Below are positions 50,378 to 64,000 of a stretch of DNA of 64,000 nucleotides, piece after piece (position 1 is the stretch's first letter; every line of letters starts with the position of its first letter). The position numbers and the translations under genes were made by a program. Source of the DNA: an uncultured Bacteroidota bacterium. GTDB taxonomy: Bacteria; Bacteroidota; Bacteroidia; Flavobacteriales; Flavobacteriaceae. The stretch spans positions 28,349 through 92,348 of the forward strand of contig CACAZM010000005.1 in NCBI GenBank assembly GCA_902536935.1, read 5' to 3'. Under the pieces are notes generated by a model. It saw nothing but the letters and a program-made list of their open reading frames with translations, was not told where the DNA came from and did no database searches.

Positions 50378-53300
50378 TTAATTTTGATTATTTAACTTAG
50401 CTACTTCCCAAGCCGAGGTGCGCGTACCATTGACATAAGCCACAATAAATGCTTTAGTAAATCCTTTTGAGATCACATGTTGTTGCGCAATTTTTGCTTG
50501 TTGGTAACTAGCAGTCGGACGATAAAGGTAACGATGAAACTCTCTAAACTTTTCAGTTGATAGTCCGCTTAAACCCCTAAAAACTTTATGATTGACATCT
50601 CGTCTATTGATCAATGCAGCAATTTGTACAACATAAACAACATCTGCATCGGCTAAGGCCTTTTGGGCATTGAAAGACAATGAGGGATTCTGCTTTACTT
50701 TTAACTTAGCGACAATCTCATCCAAGGTGTCAGAAGGCGCTTTTTCGTTGGGGAGATTGACTGGACGGACTCCTGTGTTAGCCAACGCTTTAGCAGGTAC
50801 TGGGTTATATGGTTTTGAATTGGCTGCCTGTCTTTTGTTTCGATGGTTTTTAAGGATTTGAAGTGCTTCTTCAGCCGAACGAACCGTCGGTGAAGTCTTT
50901 GATATTGTAGAGTCTTCTGCTGTATTAGTTTTGGGTTTGACTTGAATGACAATGGTCTGTGAGGGTGCTGGGGGCCGAAGGTTTATTGGAGTTACTTCAC
51001 CATTCTGATTGCGATGGTTATCCAATATTTTAAGGGCCTCTTCGGCTGACCGAACAGGAGGTTGCTCATTTTTACTTTGCGGGCTTGAATTTGATCTATC
51101 CTGAACCACAATGGCATCTGGCATTTCTTGTCCCTGTAGCGTGCTTTGTAATGCCGGTGAGGTCACAACTGGAGGGATTGCGTTAGCCGAAAGGCTTACC
51201 CGGACTGGTGGTACAACTGGCGTGGGTCTTGTCGGGTTTGTGTTTTGGACTCTCGGCTCTATTGGCTGCGGAATTGGAGATGGCATTGCGGCTATTGTAG
51301 GTGTGTTTACATTAGGCATTGGCACCTGAGAATTAGCTTGCGTAGGGCGATTTAGTCTGTATGTTCCACTTCCCCCCGACAAAATCTGATAGTTTTCGAT
51401 AATAAACATCGAACGGCGATTGAGCTGATGCTCTGCCTCTGTACATGGTACTCCATCTGCACAACGGTTGATGAGCTGACTTTCTCCATAGCCCACTGCA
51501 GTCAAACGTGTGGGAGCGATCCCACGCTGAATAAGCCAGTTTCTGGTCGAGGTCGCTCGGTTTTGTGAAAGACGTAAGTTGTAGGATTGTGGGCTGCGTG
51601 AGTCGGTATGAGACTCGATTCGTATAATCAGTTCTGGAAATCGAATCATCGCATTAAAAACCTTAGTCAATTCAATTTCTGCATCTTGACGTATAAAATA
51701 TTTATTGAGATCAAAATATATGGGATTTAGTCCAAGTAAACAACCCAAGTCGTAAGGCGGGCAGTCCTTAGAAAAGGTTTCGATTTCCATATCTACACTG
51801 ATACTTTGTGAGGTAGTGGGCGCAACAAACGTCGTTTCAGCAATGGAATATGCCAATCCATTTTCCGTAATTAAATAATAGGCTTGCCCACATTCCACTT
51901 CTTCGGGGAAAGAATAGCGTGCATCTTGCTGAACAATTTGCTCGGCAATGATGTTCATCCCCATATCGAGAAGTTTAACCGTTGCCCCCGGCATTAGATT
52001 GCCTGTATTGCTGTCCCTTACAAGCCCTGTGATTTCAACCACACACTTGCTGGGTTTGAAATAATAAATCTGATCGGAGGCACTTCCTCTGTTTCCATCG
52101 CGATTGGAAGAGATATAACCCGTATTGGTATCGGTTTGCAACAGAAATCCAAAGTCATCCCCAGCAGAATTGATTGGAAGCCCCATATTTTCAGGGTCAC
52201 GAGCAATTCCTGAGTCACTCAGCTCTGCTTTAAATACATCAAATCCACCAAAGCCAATAAGGGCGTCAGAGGTGAAGTAAAAGTTACCATTACTTGCTAT
52301 ATATGGAAATGATTCACGTCCCTCAGTATTTACCTTTTGACCCAAGTTGATTGGATCTCCGTATGAGCCATCTTTGTAAATGTCCACATACCAAAGGTCA
52401 GATTCCCCGGTTGTACCTGGCATATCTGAGGCAAAAAATAGTTTCTTTCCATCTAAGCTTAAGGCAGGGTGTGCTACAGAATAGTTGTCATTATTAAAGG
52501 GTAGTTCCTCTACATCGCTCCAATTGCCATCTTCATCAACTGATGCTGTGAGTAATTTTAAACGCACTGTGTTTTTACGATCGGTGCGTTTTTTTCCGTT
52601 TTTGTAATTATTGCGAGTAAAATAAACCGTTTTTAAATCTTTCGTAAAAACTGCAGAGGACTCGTGAAAAGCAGTATTGATATCCCCCTCAATTTTCTGG
52701 GTGTTCTCGAGTTGTCCTTCATCTCCAATATCAGCAATATAGAGGTCTAAGAATGGCTCTCCCGTCCAGTCATAATCACGTTGCCCACTTGCTTGAAAAG
52801 TAGATGAAAATACTAGTTTGTCTTGACCAAAAAAGGCCGAGCTAAAGTCCGATTGCTCGGTGTTTATTTTGGTTGTTTCCACAATATACTTCGGACGTAG
52901 TTCGGCAATGCTGTCAAGGTAGTTCAAGTCCGCAACATACAAATCTTCAATAACAGTTCCTTTTACCATACTAAAATACTTTTGCATATAGCGATCTGCT
53001 ATAGAGTAATTTTCGTTACTTCTAGCACTTATAGATGCTCGTAAGTAATAAATGGATTTGATATCTTTAGGATAAAGTGATATCAATTTTCGATACCAAG
53101 TATATGATTGGTTGTATTGGCTGTTAAAGAAGTATGTGTCGGCAAGGGATTGAATCACTTTCTTGTCAGTAAAATCGGCATCGTCACGAACCAGTTGTAA
53201 AAAAGCAGATTGCGCTCGGTTATATCGATAGTCATTGTAATCGCGGTCGGCGTCGAAAATATTATAGGGCTCTTTGGGAATTGAATCGTTTTGTCCAATT

Positions 53301-53392
53301 GCACTAGAGAAAACCAACAGAATAAATACAATCCCCAACCAATAGATTGTTTGGTTGCAACGCAGAGTTTCTAATGATGTAATCTGTTTCAT
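50378..53392 (-). CDS. OmpA-family protein with TPR-like N-term, PD40 repeats, OmpA domain and extended Pro-rich/SPOR-like C-term
   Basis: 1004 aa; ALSLDGKKLFFASDMPG PD40 motifs; IRIESHTDSRSPQSYNLRLSQNRATSTRNWLIQRGI OmpA motif; adjacent PorP/SprF-like gene. Confidence 0.9.
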   Translation of the reverse strand: MKQITSLETLRCNQTIYWLGIVFILLVFSSAIGQNDSIPKEPYNIFDADRDYNDYRYNRAQSAFLQLVRDDADFTDKKVIQSLADTYFFNSQYNQSYTWYRKLISLYPKDIKSIYYLRASISARSNENYSIADRYMQKYFSMVKGTVIEDLYVADLNYLDSIAELRPKYIVETTKINTEQSDFSSAFFGQDKLVFSSTFQASGQRDYDWTGEPFLDLYIADIGDEGQLENTQKIEGDINTAFHESSAVFTKDLKTVYFTRNNYKNGKKRTDRKNTVRLKLLTASVDEDGNWSDVEELPFNNDNYSVAHPALSLDGKKLFFASDMPGTTGESDLWYVDIYKDGSYGDPINLGQKVNTEGRESFPYIASNGNFYFTSDALIGFGGFDVFKAELSDSGIARDPENMGLPINSAGDDFGFLLQTDTNTGYISSNRDGNRGSASDQIYYFKPSKCVVEITGLVRDSNTGNLMPGATVKLLDMGMNIIAEQIVQQDARYSFPEEVECGQAYYLITENGLAYSIAETTFVAPTTSQSISVDMEIETFSKDCPPYDLGCLLGLNPIYFDLNKYFIRQDAEIELTKVFNAMIRFPELIIRIESHTDSRSPQSYNLRLSQNRATSTRNWLIQRGIAPTRLTAVGYGESQLINRCADGVPCTEAEHQLNRRSMFIIENYQILSGGSGTYRLNRPTQANSQVPMPNVNTPTIAAMPSPIPQPIEPRVQNTNPTRPTPVVPPVRVSLSANAIPPVVTSPALQSTLQGQEMPDAIVVQDRSNSSPQSKNEQPPVRSAEEALKILDNHRNQNGEVTPINLRPPAPSQTIVIQVKPKTNTAEDSTISKTSPTVRSAEEALQILKNHRNKRQAANSKPYNPVPAKALANTGVRPVNLPNEKAPSDTLDEIVAKLKVKQNPSLSFNAQKALADADVVYVVQIAALINRRDVNHKVFRGLSGLSTEKFREFHRYLYRPTASYQQAKIAQQHVISKGFTKAFIVAYVNGTRTSAWEVAKLNNQN

Positions 53393-54361
53393 TTAGAAGA
53401 ATCTAGGAGTTAGTATACGTTCTCCTTTACGTGGAATCGTAAATCGTAAAATCATCTCGTATGACCCTGAGCTAAATTGTTGAATTGCTGTGGTCTGATA
53501 GTCATAGGCAAAGCCCACAAAAGCTCTGTCAGAAAGGGCAAACCCAGCAATTGCGCTGATTGCAGCGTCGAGTCGGTAGGCAGCCCCAAATGTAATTTTT
53601 TCGTTGAAATAGATGTTAGCCGATAAATCCATCTGTATAGGGGATCCGCGGACAATTTTGACCATTCCAGCTGGCTTAAGTTTGATTGCATCGTTGATAT
53701 CAAAAACATAACCAGCGATCAAAAAATAATGCATCCGCTCCTTGGCTTCTGCTGAAGCAAAGACACTTCCATTAACCTCATAGTGTTTTGTTTTTAAGAA
53801 ATTTGGAACAGAAAACCCAGCATAAAACCTGTCGTTATTATAATAAATTCCTGCACCGATTTGAGGGGATAGCAGAGAGGTGTTTTCAGAAAATTGTTCG
53901 TCGCTGGTATTGGCGAGATTGAGAATCGAATAATCAACCTGTAAGTTGCTTACCCCAGCTTTGAGTCCAAGGGTTATCTTGGATCCATAGTCATTATAAA
54001 AGGTATAGCCGTAATCCGCTGTCAAGCTTTGCTCAGTTGTCGGACCAATAACGTCGCTAACAATAGAAAGTCCCAATGCAGTTTTATTACGACGTCCAAC
54101 AGGAGAACTGATCGTAAAGCTTCCTGTTTGAGGAGAGCCTTCAAAATCAACCCACTGTGAACGCGTCAAAAACCCAAAATGAACTGCTTCAGTTGACCCC
54201 AGATAAGCTGGGTTGACCACTTGGGTGTTATACATATGCATGGTGTACTGTGGGTCTTGCTGAGCGTTGGATTGCATCCATGGTCCAAAGTGGAAAATCA
54301 ATAGCCATAACCCAGTTAATCTGGCATTTATCAACCTCGGTATGTGTGTTTTCCAATTCAT
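53393..54361 (-). CDS. PorP/SprF-family type IX secretion-associated outer-membrane protein
   Basis: QQDPQYTMHMYNTQVVNPAYLGSTEAVHFGFLTRSQWVDFEGSPQTGSFTISSPV; start ATG overlaps upstream stop (TGATG). Confidence 0.92.
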   Translation of the reverse strand: MNWKTHIPRLINARLTGLWLLIFHFGPWMQSNAQQDPQYTMHMYNTQVVNPAYLGSTEAVHFGFLTRSQWVDFEGSPQTGSFTISSPVGRRNKTALGLSIVSDVIGPTTEQSLTADYGYTFYNDYGSKITLGLKAGVSNLQVDYSILNLANTSDEQFSENTSLLSPQIGAGIYYNNDRFYAGFSVPNFLKTKHYEVNGSVFASAEAKERMHYFLIAGYVFDINDAIKLKPAGMVKIVRGSPIQMDLSANIYFNEKITFGAAYRLDAAISAIAGFALSDRAFVGFAYDYQTTAIQQFSSGSYEMILRFTIPRKGERILTPRFF

Positions 54362-57300
54362 CAATCTCGATTTATGTATAAATAACCTGTATACCTTTCT
54401 CTACCTGGGTTTTCCCCATCAAATTCTATTACATAGAAATAGGTTCCTGAAGGGAGCTTTTGATTCTTAGTAATCGTAATTCTTCCCTCCGATATTCCCG
54501 TAAATAATCTGTCGCCCAAACCATATCCTTTTGTTTCATAAACAAGTACCCCCCATCTGTTAAAGATTTTCACAGTATTATTTGGATACTTTTCTATGCC
54601 CGCAACTTTGAAGTAATCATTAATACCGTCATCTCCAGGAGACATTCCGTTAAATACTTCAAAATCACCATCAACTGGATCTTGTGAGAAGGTTAGTACA
54701 GTCGGATCGTTGGTTGTATTACCATCAGTATCATCCCCATTGTCAGACACATCACTCACAGGTATTCCCGTTGGTGTTGTTGCAGTTGCTGATGCAGTAT
54801 TGGATACCCCGCCTGCGTTGTCAGCTTGCGCGTTGACAATGAAGGTCGCTGTATATGTAGCTGTCTCACCAACCAACAATGTTCCTTCTGATGAGCCTAG
54901 ATTTGCACTAACAAATAGGGGGCCTGTTGTTAGCGCTAGGGAATTACCACTTAAGTCACTGAATACATCATTGATAAAGAGACCACTCAGCTCCGTATTA
55001 CCAGTATTTTCAACTGTAATTAGGAAAGTAATAGTATCCCCAAGCCCTGTTGTGCCATTTCCATTGTCACTTATTGTGGCCGTTTTGGTTACTTCAATTG
55101 ATGAACTATTAGGATTAATAATTGTAGTACGCGTAATCGTTGGATCATTCTCTGTGTTACCATCTGTATCATCTCCATCATCTGAGATGTCACTTACAGC
55201 AGTACCCCCTGGACTAGTCGCTACAGCCGTAACTGTATTGGATACCCCGCCTGCATTTATCGCCTGAGCTGTTATGATATAGGTCGCTGTATACGTCGCT
55301 ACCTCACCCACAACTAGTGACCCATCTGCAGAGCCTAGTGATGATCCTGTAAACAATGGACCGCTATTCAATGTAAGACTTACTCCATTAAGATCGGTCA
55401 ATGTGTCGGTCAAGTCAACCGAAGATAGATCAGTGTCACCAGTATTAGTAACTGTTATCGTATAAGTAATCGTATCACCTAGTCCAACATCACCATCTCC
55501 GTTATCAGTAACTGCAGCTGTTTTGGTTACTTCTATAGCTGGAGATTCAGGCGTGTCGGTCAAGGTGACTGTTGGGTCACTTTCTGTATTGCCATCTGTA
55601 TCATCTCCATCATCTGAGATGTCACTTACAGCAGTACCCCCTGGACTAGTCGCTACAGCCGTAACTGTATTGGATACCCCGCCTGCATTTACCGCCTGAG
55701 CTGTTATGATATAGGTCGCTATATACGTCGCTACCTCACCCACAACTAGTGACCCATCTGCAGAGCCTAGTGATGATCCTGTAAACAATGGACCGCTATT
55801 CAATGTAAGACTTACTCCATTAAGATCGGTCAATGTGTCGGTCAAGTCAACCGAAGATAGATCAGTGTCACCAGTATTAGTAACTGTTATCGTATAAGTA
55901 ATCGTATCACCTAGTCCAACATCACCATCTCCGTTATCAGTAACTGCAGCTGTTTTGGTTACTTCTATAGCTGGAGATTCAGGCGTGTCGGTCAAGGTGA
56001 CTGTTGGGTCACTTTCTGTATTGCCATCTGTATCATCTCCATCATCTGAGATGTCAAATACATCATTTGTCATACCAGGACTACTCGCTACAACAGTTAC
56101 TGTGTTTGATACCCCACCTGTATCAAAGGATTCTTGACTTATGAAATAGGTTGCAAGGTAGGTTGCGGTTTCTCCTTGGCGTAACGCACCTTCTGATGAT
56201 CCTAGATCTGCCGATGTAAAGTTTGGCCCAGAAGTAAGTGTCAAAACATTCCCGTTTCTATCAGTAAGCACATCCGTGAGCTCAAGTCCAGATAGGTCCG
56301 TATTTCCTGTGTTCTCGACTGTAATTGTATAAGTTATTGTATCACCTACACCAACTAAACTATCACCATTATCGTTCACGGTTGCGATTTTAGTTACCTC
56401 AATTGATGAAGCAGGTGCCGCATCTGTGAGAACTATTGTTGGGTCGTTAAATGGATCTCCATCCCCGTCCGCATCTGTTGGGTCTCCTTCATCTGAAATA
56501 TCCGAAACGTCATTAAAGTTACCAGGACTACTACCTACAGCTTTGGCTGTATTGCTCAATAAACCTGTTTCAGCGGCATCTTGTGTAATCACATATAAGG
56601 CTGTAAATATGATTGTTTCACCTACTTCAACTGTCTGTGGTTGCCAGTAATCTGGTCCTGATGACAGAGCAAGTAAATTATCATCGCCGTCTGTTAAAGT
56701 CTCATCCTGGATATAAACATTGTTCAGTACAATATCTCCTATGTTTTCTACTGCAATACTATATCTAATGATATCACCTGCGCCTGTCAATCCATCTCCA
56801 TTGTCGTTGACTATAGCTGTTTTTATAACTTCCATAGCGGGGTTTGGATCGGTTAAGGTTACTGTTGGATCATTTGTTGGGTCGCCATCCGCATTACCAT
56901 CAGTTGGTAATCCATCATCTGAAATGTCAGAAACATCATTGGTTTTACTGGGACTACTTGCAACCACAGTTACTGTGTTTGACACCCCACCTGCATTGAC
57001 TGCTTGCTGATTTATAGCAAATGATGCTTCGAAAGTCGAAACTTCACCAACTCGAAGAACCGTAGGTGCTCCACCCGCCAAGTTAGATCCCATATAAACT
57101 GGCTGAGAGCTCAGTGAAAGTAAGTCTCCATTCAAGTCAGTCATTACATCTACCAAGGCCAACCCTGTTAGATCTGTATTTCCATTATTTTCTACCTTAA
57201 TTGTGTAAGTAATAATGTCATTAATACCTGTTTTGTTATCAGAATTAGTATCTGTAACATTTGCTGTTTTGATTACCTCAATAATCGGAATAAGATCCAT

Positions 57301-60300
57301 TTCAACGATGGTCGGGTCGCCCTTGGTCAAGGTTTCTGGATCGTCACTATTTTCTGTGATGGTAGTCCCGCTAGGATCTGTACCAGTAGCTACAACAGTA
57401 TTGACAACACTTCCACTATCTGCAGCATTTTGCTCAATAAGGTAATATGCAGAGTAAATCTCAGTTTCTCCAGGTTCAATATCACGAAGTAGCCATGCGC
57501 TTGTGTCAATTGTCAATTGGTTTCCATTACCGTCAATTAAGGTGTCGACGAGTGTAACTCCATAAAGGGTTACATTTCCCGTATTTGTTACTCGTATGGT
57601 ATAGTCTATCAAATCAGAAGTACCAATAAACCCATCAGCATCAGCTGTGATACGTGCCGTTTTGGTGACTTCCATTTCCGGGTTGGCAGCAATTAATGTT
57701 ATTGTTGGATCATTACCAGTGTCGCCAAGCGCTGTATCTCCATCATCAGAGATGTCACTTACAACCGTACCATCTGGGGCTACTCCGGTTGCGGTTGCTG
57801 TATTGGAAAGACCACCTGCATCTACGATTTCTTGATTAATCAATTGATATACTGTGTATGTTTCTGTACTTCCTGGCTCTACAGTGCGAACAGTAGATAG
57901 TATTGCTGTTCCAGAAGTCAATGAAATCTCTATACCATTAACATCTGTAAGCAGATCCTCAAGGGTCACATCTAAGGTTACATTTCCAATATTTTCAACT
58001 TCTATAGTGTATTGAACAACATCCCCAACACCAAGATCACCGTCTCCATTATCATTGATAGAGGCTGTTTTTATCACCTCAATCGCTGGGACTGAATCAA
58101 TGGTAGTAACCACCTCGTTGCTGTCTATGTTTACAACAACCCCATTTGGTGAAAGTGCTGCTGCTGATGCTGTATTTGACACCCCACCTGCATTTATCGC
58201 TTGCTGGTTAATCGCAAATACTGCTTCATAAATAACTGTTTCGCCCACTACAATTGTTGGTGTTCCTGGGTAGGTGGTGTTGCTATTATCAGAACTCACG
58301 TAACTTGGAAGTGATTGTAGTGATAATGACTGATTTAATAGGTCTTCAATCAAGTCATTAATCACGACATCTGTTAGCACAACATTCCCTGTATTGCTCA
58401 AAGTCAATGTGTAAGTAATCGTATCGCCTAAATCTAAACTTCCATCTCCTCCGTCATTTAGAGTAGCAGACTTTGTCAGTGTCATGGACGGTAACTGATC
58501 TAGCTCGTTCTCTACTGCTGTGTCTGTTGTGTCTGTTACATCATCCACATCATTTGGACTGCTTGCTGTTACTGTGGCTATGTTAGATACCATGCCGCTG
58601 TTCATCGCTGCTTGATCGACTGTGTAACTAACTGTGTAGATTGCAACATCACCCACTTCTAAGTCGTCTAATAACGCCTGTGGTGTGCCATTCAAACTCA
58701 CAAGAGTTATGGCTGAAGATAAATCCGTTTCTATGCCAGACCCATCTGTTAAAGTGTCTGTCAAACTAATTGTGTCTAGTGTTACATTTCCTGTATTGGT
58801 AATAGTAAGTGTATAGTCGATTGTATCACCAACATCCATCGTACCATCTCCTCCATCATTCTCAGAAGAAGTCTTTGTGATTTCAATTGATGGATTTGCT
58901 GTCATTGTTACAATTGCAGGATCACTATCTACTGGGGTAACTGTAGAACCATCAAGGATTGTTGCTGAGGCAGAAGCCACGTTGATAATACTACCCGTAT
59001 CAGCTGCAGCTTGTTCGATTAAATAAGTTACTGTATAAGTTTCTGAAGCACCCGGTGCTATGTCACGAAGAACACCATCAATTGCTGCATCTTGAGTAAG
59101 TGTTAAACCATTACCAGTTTGATCGGTTAATACGTCTGTAATTTCCACATCAAATAGCGTAACATTTCCTGTATTGGTAACTACAATGGTGTACTCTACT
59201 AAGTCCCCTGCTTCTGTGATTCCGTCTGTGTTTCCAACAAGTGCTGCAGTTTTAACCACTGTCATACTTGGGCTTGGTTGGATGGTTGTAATTGTTGGGT
59301 CATCCCCTGTATCGCCTATACCTGTGTCGCCGTCATCGGAAATATCCGTCACATCAACTCCGTTGGAATCGATGCCTATTGCCGAGGCACTATTTGTCAA
59401 TCCACCGGAATCAACAATCTCCTGATCAATCAAATGATATGCAGTGTATGTAGCAACTTCGCTTGCCTGTAGAGTTCCGTTTGATGAACCTAGCGAGGCA
59501 CCCATAAAGCTGAGTATATTACCACTACTTAAAACAATATCATTGCCAGCGTTATCTTGTAATTCATCTGAAACTGATATACTTGTTAGGGTCACACTTC
59601 CTGTGTTTTCAACTGTTATCGTGTATTGAACAATATCGCCTACTCCAGTAACTCCATCTCCATTATCGACAATATCTGCAACTTTAATCACCTCTATTGA
59701 TGATGTTTGGTCAATTGTCGTATCTACAGTGGTATCGAGGGCATCACTTATTTGTAGTCCTGTTGGGCTATCTGCTGTGACTGTAGCGTTATTAGAGACG
59801 ATGCCACTGTTAATAGCTGCTTGGTCAATGATATATTCAACTGTATATGTTGCTGTTTCTCCTACCGCTAAGGTTCCCTCTGTCGCTGTATTTGATGTGT
59901 CAAAGGTTGGGCTCAACACATTTGTATTGCCACCTCCGTTTGTCAGAACATCTGTGACTTGGATACTGGATAATGTTACATCCCCTGTGTTTTCAATTGT
60001 TATCGTATATGTAATGGAATCTCCTAGGTTTGTGAGATTGTCTGCGCCTTTGTCTACAGTAGCAACTTTAGTGACTGTAATATTTGGCGATTGATCTAGT
60101 TGCGTGATTGTTTGATCATCGTCTGTATCCCCGTCAGTATCGTCTCCATCGTCACTGCGATCCGTTACATCATCTGTGAGATTTGGACTACTTGCTGTGG
60201 CAAGAACTGTGTTCATAACTTGACCACTGTCGATGGCTGTTTGTGTGATGGTGTAAGTGACCGTATAGGTTGCTGTTTCACCGACTCCTAAGGTTCCTTC

Positions 60301-63300
60301 AGTAGCAGTGTTTATGCTGTCATATATCGGTGTGAGTGTAGAGGTGTTTCCAACGGCATCGGTCAATACATCTACAAGAGAGACCCCATCCAGTGTTACA
60401 TTCCCTTTATTTTCAACAGTAATTGTGTACGTAATCGTGTCATCAATGTTTGTTTTTCCATCTGCATTCACATCATCAACTGCTGCTGTTTTCACTACCT
60501 CAATAACTGGGTCGTGATCAATTTGTAATGCTGTGGCATCTTCGATTGCTGTTGTCTCGGGGTCATCAGTATCTACATCTAGATCGTTTGTTTGACCAGG
60601 GCTACTCGAATATACTGTTGCTTGATTGCTAAGTCCTCCTGCATCAACTACACTTTGTGTCAAATCAAAGGTTGCGATATAGTGGGCTTTTTCACCCGGA
60701 ATTAATGTTCCTTCATTTGATCCTTCACTGCTAATTGTAAAGGTTGGTCCAGTTGTTAATGTAAGACTAACGTTGTTATTGTCAATAAAGTTGTTGTCAT
60801 GAATGTTTACATCAGACAAGATGGCATTTCCGTTATTTTCAACGATGATTGTATATTCTACTGCGTCACCAACTCCTAAGAATCCATCTCCATTTTCGAG
60901 TACGCGAACCGTCTTCGTAGCCTTCATTGATGGATCAGAGCCCATTGGAACTACCGTTGGATCGCTATCGTTGCTAGTGGTATTATTTGGATCGTCACTA
61001 ATATCACTTACTGTTTGTCCTTGTGCCACTCCGTAGAAGGTCACTTGGTTCGATACAAGACCAGTAGCAAAGGCATCTGTAGTGACATTATATGTAAATG
61101 TGTAGGTTGCCGTTTCACCAACAAGCAAGACTGTTGGATCAGTTGTACCTAGATCTGCACTTACAAATGTTAGGGTTGGTGTTGCTATCGTAACATCATT
61201 TCCGTCGCGCAAGGTGTCTTGATAACCTACGCTATTGAGGACGATATTTCCTGTATTTTGTACTTCAATTGTAAAGGTTACAGTATCCCCCTCATCGACT
61301 ACTCCATCATTATCAAGATCTGTAGTTAACACCCAAGTTTTTAGGCCTTCTATTGATGCCCTTGCACCAGTTTGTGTGTCAACAAAAGCGATCTCTTCAA
61401 TTTCGTTACCAGATGGATCATCGGCTGTTACGGTTACTGTATTTCTTGCCAACTGTGAATCAGATGTAGCTTGATCAATAGTGAATTGTACACTGTAGCT
61501 TGCTGTTTCACCCACTTCAAGGGTTCCCTCTGTAGCAGTATTTGTTATGTCATATGTTGACGTAAGTGTCGTTGAAGTATCATCCCCATCAACTAAAATG
61601 TCTACAATTGCAATGTTGGTCAGGACAACATTTCCAGTATTTGTTATTGTAATTGTATAGTCAATAATATCCCCTGTTCCATTATATCCGTCTCCATCAT
61701 CTTGTATCCCTGCTACTTCTTTTGTAACAGAGAACGATGGGTTTGCGTCAATGTCTACTATTGTTGGGTCATTGGTGTCATTAACGGTTATTCCATCCTG
61801 GTCGCTTCCATATGCTGTTACAGTATTGGAGAGCTGATCGACTAAGAAATCATCATCTGATATTAAGTAAGTTGCGACATATGTTGCTATTTCACCTACC
61901 TTGAGCGTGCCCTCTGGTGATGTTAAACTAGCTGAGTCAAATGCGGGTTCAGTAGTTAATAATCTTGGTAAAGGGTTGTTGTTTTCAATTGCCGTTAAGT
62001 CATCATCTACATAAACAGCTGTCAGCGTTACATTTCCTGTGTTTTCAACAGTGATAGTGTAATTAATGGTATCTCCAGGTCCTGTGATTCCATCACCATT
62101 ATCGTCAACTACTGCTGTTTTAATAACTTCTATCCCTGCTGTTTGTGTGAGAGTTGTGATTGTTGGATCGTCACTAACATTTGTTGTAGAAGGATCATCA
62201 CTCACTTCGGTGAAGCTATTTCCATCGCCAGTTTCAGCCGTTATGGTTGCTACATTCGAAACTCCTCCTGCATCAATTGCATCTTGATTGATAATGAAAG
62301 TGGCTATATAGGTTGCCGTTTCCTGAATTGCTAAACTATTTTCATTTGAGTCTTTAGATGAACTAATAAATCTGGGTGCTGAACTTAATGATAATCCATC
62401 TCCATCAAGATCTGAAAGGGTGTCAGTAATATCTGTGATTGTTAGAGGTGTATTTCCAGTATTTATAATGGAGATTGTGTATTGAATCACATCACCAAGT
62501 TGAGTTAAGGTGTCACCATCTTCAATAATTTCTGCTTCTTTTGTTACGTCAATACTTGGGTCGGGTGTTATTGTGATAGTTGTTGGGCTGTCCGTTTCAT
62601 CTGAAACTTCGGTGCCACTTGGGTCATAACCAGTTGCAATAGCTGAGTTAATTATACTGGCTCTATAAAGATCTGCATCCGTGATCACATAGGAGCCGCT
62701 AAATACATAGTTGTTTCCTGCATCGATATCAACATCGCTCCATGAGCCTGGGGAAGTCAATGTCATAGAGTTCCCTTTATCGTCTACCATGGTGTCTATA
62801 ACATTTACTCTTGTTAGGGATACATTACCCGTATTAGTTACTGTAATCGTGTATTGGATGGTGTCACCAGGTCCATTTATGTTGTCTCCATTATCAACAA
62901 CAACTGCTGATTTAGTCACTTCTAATGATGGCGTTGCATTAATTAAAGTAATTACATTATCATCTATTTCATCTGATACAGCTGTGTTATCTCCATCATC
63001 CGCAGTAGCGGTAACCGATGCAGTATTTGAAACTCCACCCGCATCTATCGCTGCTTGAGTAACTGCAAAGGTGGCTGTAAATGTGACTTCTTCCCCTACC
63101 TGTAGGGTTGCAACACTAGTGTCAGGGTCACTTGTAAAGTTTGTATTTGCCCCTAGTGTTGAGCTTGTAAATATTGGGCCTGTTGTTAATGAAATTAGTT
63201 CTCCATTTATGTCTGACAATTCGTCGTCAATCACAACACCATTAAGCTCAGAGTTGCCAGTATTTTTAACTTTAATCGTATAGGTAATCACATCTCCAAC

Positions 63301-64000
63301 CTCAAAGGTTCCAGAGCCTGGTGAAGCTGTTTTAGTAATCAGTATTGCTGCACTCTGAGCAATGCTTGTGACAGTATCATCATTTACCAATGCAGTATCT
63401 GGGTCATCACTTCGGGCTACCACATCATTCCCATTTGGATCTTTAGCAGTTGCATTTATAAAGTTAGATACACTTCCAGTATTTACTGTCGCTTGACTTA
63501 GTATATAGAATCCTGTGAGTGTCCTTGATTCACCAGCAGCAAGTGTAAAGCTTGGCCATGGTGTTAGATCTCCCGCGTTATGGTTTGGCGAAGACAAATA
63601 TAATGTGGTATTATTACCAGATCTTAGATTGTCTTCAAGCTCTATATCCGTAACAGGTACTTCACCTGTGTTGGTAACGATTACTGTGTACTCAATTAAG
63701 TCTCCTGCGCCAGCTTCATTATCTCCATTGTCTATCAGCTGATCCTGCTTGGTGACTGTAATCGATGCAAACAAGTCTGTCTCTACAACCGTTGGATCCT
63801 GATCTGAAGTTGTGTCATTTGGATCATCACTAATCGCTGTGATATCATCAGTACCGTTTGGCGTGTCTCCAGTAACTGTTACTACGTTACTTATACTTCC
63901 TGTCAAGGCCGCAGCCGAGCCAATCGTGTAGTATGATGTGTAGGTCTGAACAGCACCTGGAGCTAGACTTGCAATCGTCCACTGATTAGTTGGATCACTT
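54361..64000 (-). CDS. Giant DUF11-like repeat surface adhesin with T9SS type B (gliding-motility-associated) C-terminal domain, N-terminus beyond window
   Basis: Listed ORF 3181 aa; same frame continues open to base 64000 (...[36 protein letters not shown]). At least 22 repeats of the type IEVTKTAxVxDNGDGxxGxGDTIxYTITVxNTGN. Confidence 0.95.
   Translation of the reverse strand, partial: [3212 protein letters not shown]
54364..54663 (-). other. T9SS type B / CHU_C-type C-terminal sorting domain of the giant adhesin
   Basis: [47 protein letters not shown]...[14 protein letters not shown]...[10 protein letters not shown]. Confidence 0.92.
54700..64000 (-). repeat. Tandem array of at least 22 protein-level repeats (about 120-145 aa each)
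   Basis: Recurrent DNGDG...[15 protein letters not shown]...GVSNTVTA blocks counted in the translation. Confidence 0.93.
55160..56056. repeat. Near-identical 432-bp tandem DNA duplication (144 codons)
   Basis: Bases 55160-55624 align with 55592-56056 at an offset of 432 with two mismatches seen by eye (55260/55692 and 55289/55721). Confidence 0.93.

Follow-up and report, generated by a model that had tools for sequence, protein, structure and literature searches.

A giant CLIPPER-repeat protein with its own PorP and PorE-like partners, probably forming a static type IX-exported surface fibre, in small-genome marine Flavobacteriaceae

How would a small-genome flavobacterium export and hold a surface protein so long that its gene runs off the end of a contig, and would that protein be carried along the cell or fixed in place? 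The question is raised by three minus-strand genes at the end of the window (the whole 64,000-nucleotide stretch of DNA analysed here), which the initial annotation had interpreted as a dedicated unit that exports one giant surface protein by the type IX secretion system (T9SS) and anchors it. Our results support that interpretation. The reading that we consider probable is a T9SS-exported, static giant surface fibre with a CLIPPER stalk, a presumed adhesive head, and a dedicated mount composed of a PorP and a PorE-like protein. All three genes were found where they had been placed, with the following features:

54361..63999, minus strand: giant type B T9SS substrate, C-terminal fragment of 3,212 aa, truncated at its 5' side where the contig stops
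54691..63990, minus strand: 23 tandem DUF7507/DUF11 (CLIPPER) Ig-like repeats of ~130 aa, from a home-made HMM
54373..54660, minus strand: CHU_C / TIGR04131 type B T9SS C-terminal signal domain, from profile matches
54359..54363, minus strand: TGATG overlap of the substrate stop and the PorP/SprF start, from the sequence
53393..54361, minus strand: outer-membrane shuttle of the PorP/SprF family, 322 aa counted from the ATG in the overlap (PF11751, TIGR03519)
50378..53392, minus strand: PorE-like periplasmic anchor, 1,004 aa, from domain order and homology
52232..52345, minus strand: PD40 propeller repeat in the PorE-like protein, from a profile match
51455..51718, minus strand: OmpA domain (peptidoglycan-binding type) in the PorE-like protein, from a profile match
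50396..50644, minus strand: SPOR-like domain closing the genus-specific extension of the PorE-like protein, from hhalign to an amidase SPOR domain

The family matches across this unit lie far beyond chance. In the repeat ORF, Pfam recognised DUF7507 (22 stretches), DUF11 and CHU_C, in agreement with the DUF11-like content and CHU_C-type terminus proposed earlier; the C-terminal domain, which marks a T9SS type B substrate, scored 89 bits with PF13585 and 36.9 with TIGR04131 (cut-off, 35). The TGATG overlap is present, as had been noticed, and the second gene belongs to the PorP/SprF family over its full length (PF11751, 254 bits; TIGR03519, 244 bits), as had also been proposed. Its TAA abuts the ATG of the PorE-like gene at 53392, with a gap of 0. 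The fixed stoichiometry earlier read into the overlapping starts is conjectural. Directly downstream of the PorE-like gene lies a metallo-beta-lactamase-like gene (window:49438-50328, recognised by eye), which is conserved in congeners; there, an extra gene for a hydrolase-like lipoprotein, missing from the window, sits between the two.

The length originally given for the repeat protein, more than 3,200 aa, holds for the ORF of 3,212 residues, but this ORF encodes only the C-terminal quarter of a protein about fourfold larger, the remainder of which lies on another contig. The end of the window is also the end of contig C5, in an assembly of 1.56 Mb that is 78% complete. Contig C8 of the same genome starts within a reading frame on the minus strand, 8,229 codons long and without a 3' end (G000:C8:24687..1 (-)). 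In a congener, G012, a single unbroken frame spans 13,623 codons, or 13,603 aa when read from a TTG; it matches the C8 part at its N-terminus and the window part at its C-terminus, and the same PorP gene comes next; its product has a mass of 1.46 MDa, a pI of 4.05 and a net charge of -1,618. The C8 and window parts (8,229 and 3,212 aa) together give the window genome's protein a length of at least 11,441 aa, and alignment places it at about 11.5-12.9 thousand residues, with the gap estimated from relatives, as the gene is not contiguous in its own genome.

Could this size be an assembly artefact, or could the C8 and C5 parts belong to two different genes? The contigs of several congener assemblies do break in the same repeat region, where G012 carries a 938-aa superrepeat duplication (2.8 kb) at aa 8209-9275 (L043), 93% identical over 300 nt, which is repeat turnover by segmental duplication. 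However, G012 and a further congener, G010, agree across the break: two G010 contigs are colinear with the G012 frame (identities of 89% and 84%), and 67 aa are missing between the two. Synteny is kept on both sides, the genes upstream of the C8 frame matching those upstream in G012, and the record AG-908-E14, which from its name we take to be a single-cell genome, contains both halves of the substrate. The artefact or two-gene explanation is thus largely refuted, and we regard it as exceedingly improbable. Between G010 and G012, dN/dS values of 0.22 and 0.27 were obtained over 9,100 codons, and the giant gene is therefore under purifying selection.

A signal sequence, on which the export proposal depended, was found on the full-length protein: both the C8 and G012 products carry a long hydrophobic N-terminal segment of Sec type, called by hydropathy only and with a TTG start assumed. 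The T9SS core genes SprA, GldJ and GldK are likewise present in the genome. SprA was detected in 11 of the 13 genomes of the genus, that of the window included, and GldJ and GldK matches were detected in all 13, most of them above the family cut-off.

The stalk belongs to a recently redefined class of domains. Since 2025, DUF11 and DUF7507 have carried the names CLIPPER and CLIPPER_2, and the crystal structure 9IFR shows an isopeptide bond (PMC12617251). With the home-made HMM, 81 repeat matches were obtained in the G012 protein, and because some are halves of interrupted repeats, about 75-80 domains are present. At the triad positions, Lys was found in 97%, Asp/Glu in 96% and Asn in 98% of 127 aligned repeats; the Lys/Asp(Glu)/Asn triad is complete in 115 of these 127 and in all 22 full repeats of the window. 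In both species, the first repeat has lost the whole triad, and gaps in the alignment at Lys account for most other exceptions. When the repeat profile was compared with the PDB, the sole credible match was 9IFR, a crosslinked CLIPPER domain (E 2e-4), with Lys and Asn falling on the published bond residues and Asp on chain residue 44, one residue off the number in the paper's table (same offset). The profile was needed here, as searching the PDB with the single sequence of two repeats gave no credible match. AlphaFold modelled the repeat as an Ig-like sandwich (pLDDT 93) in which each triad residue lies on a strand of its own; Foldseek returned general Ig-like matches to this model, none at E <= 0.001. 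The repeats carry the Lys/Asp/Asn triad on a CnaA-like Ig fold, as in the CLIPPER and CLIPPER_2 families. A Lys-Asn isopeptide bond is predicted in nearly every stalk domain, and the fibre is probably isopeptide-stiffened.

The third gene had been described as an OmpA-family anchor with PD40 and SPOR-like parts. Profile comparison recovered PD40, OmpA and a SPOR-like domain; the protein is best described as PorE-like, however, and not as a generic OmpA protein. Its order is TPR, PD40 propeller, CarboxypepD-like domain, OmpA, Pro-rich linker and SPOR-like end. PD40 and OmpA are significant, CarboxypepD and TPR fall below the cut-off in the window protein, and TPR is clear in the G024 orthologue, at 47% identity to the window protein. 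The NCBIfam PorE model NF052230 scored 306 bits against a cut-off of 600, and CHU_0125_OmpA scored 346 against 620. The signal peptide does not end in the Cys that an outer-membrane lipoprotein would have, and the protein thus has no lipobox, unlike P. gingivalis PorE. PorE-like proteins of the genus are longer by about 340 residues, the last part of which is a conserved SPOR-like domain of ~85 aa. This domain aligned by hhalign to the SPOR domain of an amidase from the same genus with 97% probability (E 9e-12), in a single comparison with shallow alignments; Pfam (PF05036) found no SPOR domain in the protein, and neither did Foldseek on a pLDDT-61 model. The extension was detected in the window and in all five congeners with a complete third gene, and is absent from 86 other PorE-like ORFs. 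In UBA6772 (L061:1643-3895), the PorE-like protein has extra residues at its N-terminal side in place of the C-terminal SPOR-like extension.

The arrangement recurs throughout the family. With a PorP alignment, 80 named Flavobacteriaceae loci were gathered, 79 of them testable for neighbours. A PorE gene adjoins and follows PorP in 78 of the 79, and a CLIPPER-repeat ORF precedes PorP in 76, across many genera, so that the proposed co-conservation of PorP with its substrate is upheld. A related C-terminal domain was found in 238 of 251 Flavobacteriaceae genomes, in which the next longest frame among the matches listed has 7,606 aa; the module is therefore widespread and the giant size special. 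Complete repeat ORFs at 37 loci have a median of 1,500 aa, counting ORFs that fit a 10-kb flank.

Whether such a fibre would be mobile is best considered against F. johnsoniae, in which five operons join a type B substrate, an SprF-like protein and PorE and have been proposed to form static complexes, while the mobile SprB sits outside PorE-bearing operons (PMC12618676). By this analogy, the window unit is best read as a static, wall-anchored fibre. The initial annotation had instead modelled it on the SprB/SprF gliding pair (PMC12635249), in which a giant type B adhesin of the T9SS likewise has an SprF-family carrier encoded next to it. A gliding adhesin that its PorP/SprF partner draws along the cell would fit the SprF-family gene directly after the type B domain and the GldJ and GldK matches throughout the genus, but we judge it quite unlikely. 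Here, a PorE gene follows PorP, as it does in nearly every testable locus; this class has a published link to static anchoring, and mobile substrates are reported outside PorE operons (PMC12618676). The genome has a separate SprB/SprF-like pair as well, and on these two grounds the SprB/SprF model was not borne out. Unlike SprF proper, with its C-tail Cys-X-Cys, the PorP at the locus has zero cysteines, and GldK lacks the track cysteine (the Cys343 equivalent) in the four genus members aligned, an argument that is weakened because the GldK cysteine and CxC are both lacking throughout the genus members checked.

A function other than adhesion has also been weighed for the static fibre. FISUMP (PF09603) lies in the N-terminal part in both species, and several non-repeat modules interrupt the N-terminal repeats, their order being shared between species. 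Visual inspection alone suggested TSP3-like and lectin-like stretches there, and among known binding domains FISUMP alone passed when Pfam was run on the giant protein. This divergent N-terminal part is presumed to be an adhesive head. The strong negative charge and low pI, the plain stalk over most of the length and the few recognisable binding domains would suit a role as shield or spacer, with the acidic stalks forming a coat that keeps phages, grazers or neighbours away. Such a role is unlikely, given FISUMP and the non-repeat modules, whose order is kept across species, as in fibrillar adhesins.

The cysteines and the other PorP-family genes merit a separate description. The GldK site taken, from its surroundings, to be Cys343 of F. 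johnsoniae is Asp/Glu in four genus members (G000:C2, L174:1066-2799; L170-L172) and Cys in all 30 relatives compared from outside the genus (L177-L206); the GldK of the genus also has Ala at the second conserved cysteine position. In F. johnsoniae, the GldK cysteine is needed for gliding and type A export (PMC12635249). The genus is an apparent natural exception in this respect, worth separate study. A C-tail CxC was found in none of the PorP-family proteins checked in the genus, and a search for SprF orthologues outside it gave distant paralogues only. The separate SprB/SprF-like pair lies on G000:C2 (L173:2-3954) with an overlapping stop and start; its SprF-like protein and the congeners' counterparts lack a C-tail CxC. 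On G000:C7 (L051:14327-19999, L052), a type B protein of 2.2 thousand residues lies beside a divergently transcribed PorP-family gene. The notion of a single PorP in the genome, leaving this protein an orphan, was ruled out by an HMM search that recovered three PorP-family genes: that of the locus, one beside the 2.2-kaa protein and one behind the SprB-like gene.

For the static fibre, the following route may be envisaged. The substrate, of about 12-13.6 thousand residues, would enter the periplasm via Sec; its type B C-terminal domain would be recognised, and the chain would cross the outer membrane through SprA. Its own PorP/SprF-type barrel would hold the C-terminus, as family knowledge suggests, and the PorE-like protein would grip PorP from the periplasmic side. 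Binding of peptidoglycan by the OmpA and extra SPOR-like domains of the latter would leave the fibre fixed to the wall, not on gliding tracks. Outside the cell, about 75-80 Ig-like CLIPPER domains would form a stalk about 0.3-0.4 µm long. SprB comprises ~6.5 thousand residues. Its length is ~200 nm (PMC12635249), from which the stalk estimate was scaled.

The F. johnsoniae Fjoh_3952-3951-3950 locus (PMC12618676), which is proposed to yield a static surface protein, shares the type B substrate, cognate PorP/SprF shuttle and PorE-like gene order; here, by contrast, the substrate has ~12-13.6 thousand residues of CLIPPER repeats and the PorE-like protein a SPOR-like extension. Pull-down and crosslinking have shown the type B protein PG1035 of P. 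gingivalis in a complex with PorP and PorE (PMC9143113); the same three families are present here, but with a giant stalk-forming substrate and a PorE-like protein that lacks a lipobox and has a SPOR-like end. The CLIPPER and CLIPPER_2 fibrillar adhesins, including 9IFR, share the repeat families and the triad, and co-occurrence of these repeats with CHU_C has been reported (PMC12617251), whereas here each chain has about 75-80 repeats and the bond is predicted. The type B substrate/PorP/PorE module is of an already known kind, and the size and the PorE-like anchor with its SPOR-like end are new; no earlier description of giant flavobacterial adhesins or of a SPOR-bearing PorE was found in the open-access literature.

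For small-genome marine bacteria, 41 kb on one gene is a heavy investment. The locus joins CLIPPER isopeptide domains with PorE-anchored type B proteins, both discovered recently, in one recurrent, family-wide module that could be tested in Winogradskyella, Flagellimonas, Aequorivita and other relatives in culture. A prediction on localisation follows, moreover, from the genus-specific SPOR-like extension. In a more speculative version, which we hold possible though doubtful, a single-molecule fibre of ~0.4 µm with an isopeptide lock in each domain would be steered by the SPOR-bearing PorE to septal or polar peptidoglycan and serve as a polar, holdfast-like tether, the disulfide-driven link to gliding having been lost. 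If so, this one fibre would take up about 2% of the ~1.5-2 Mb genome in the genus.
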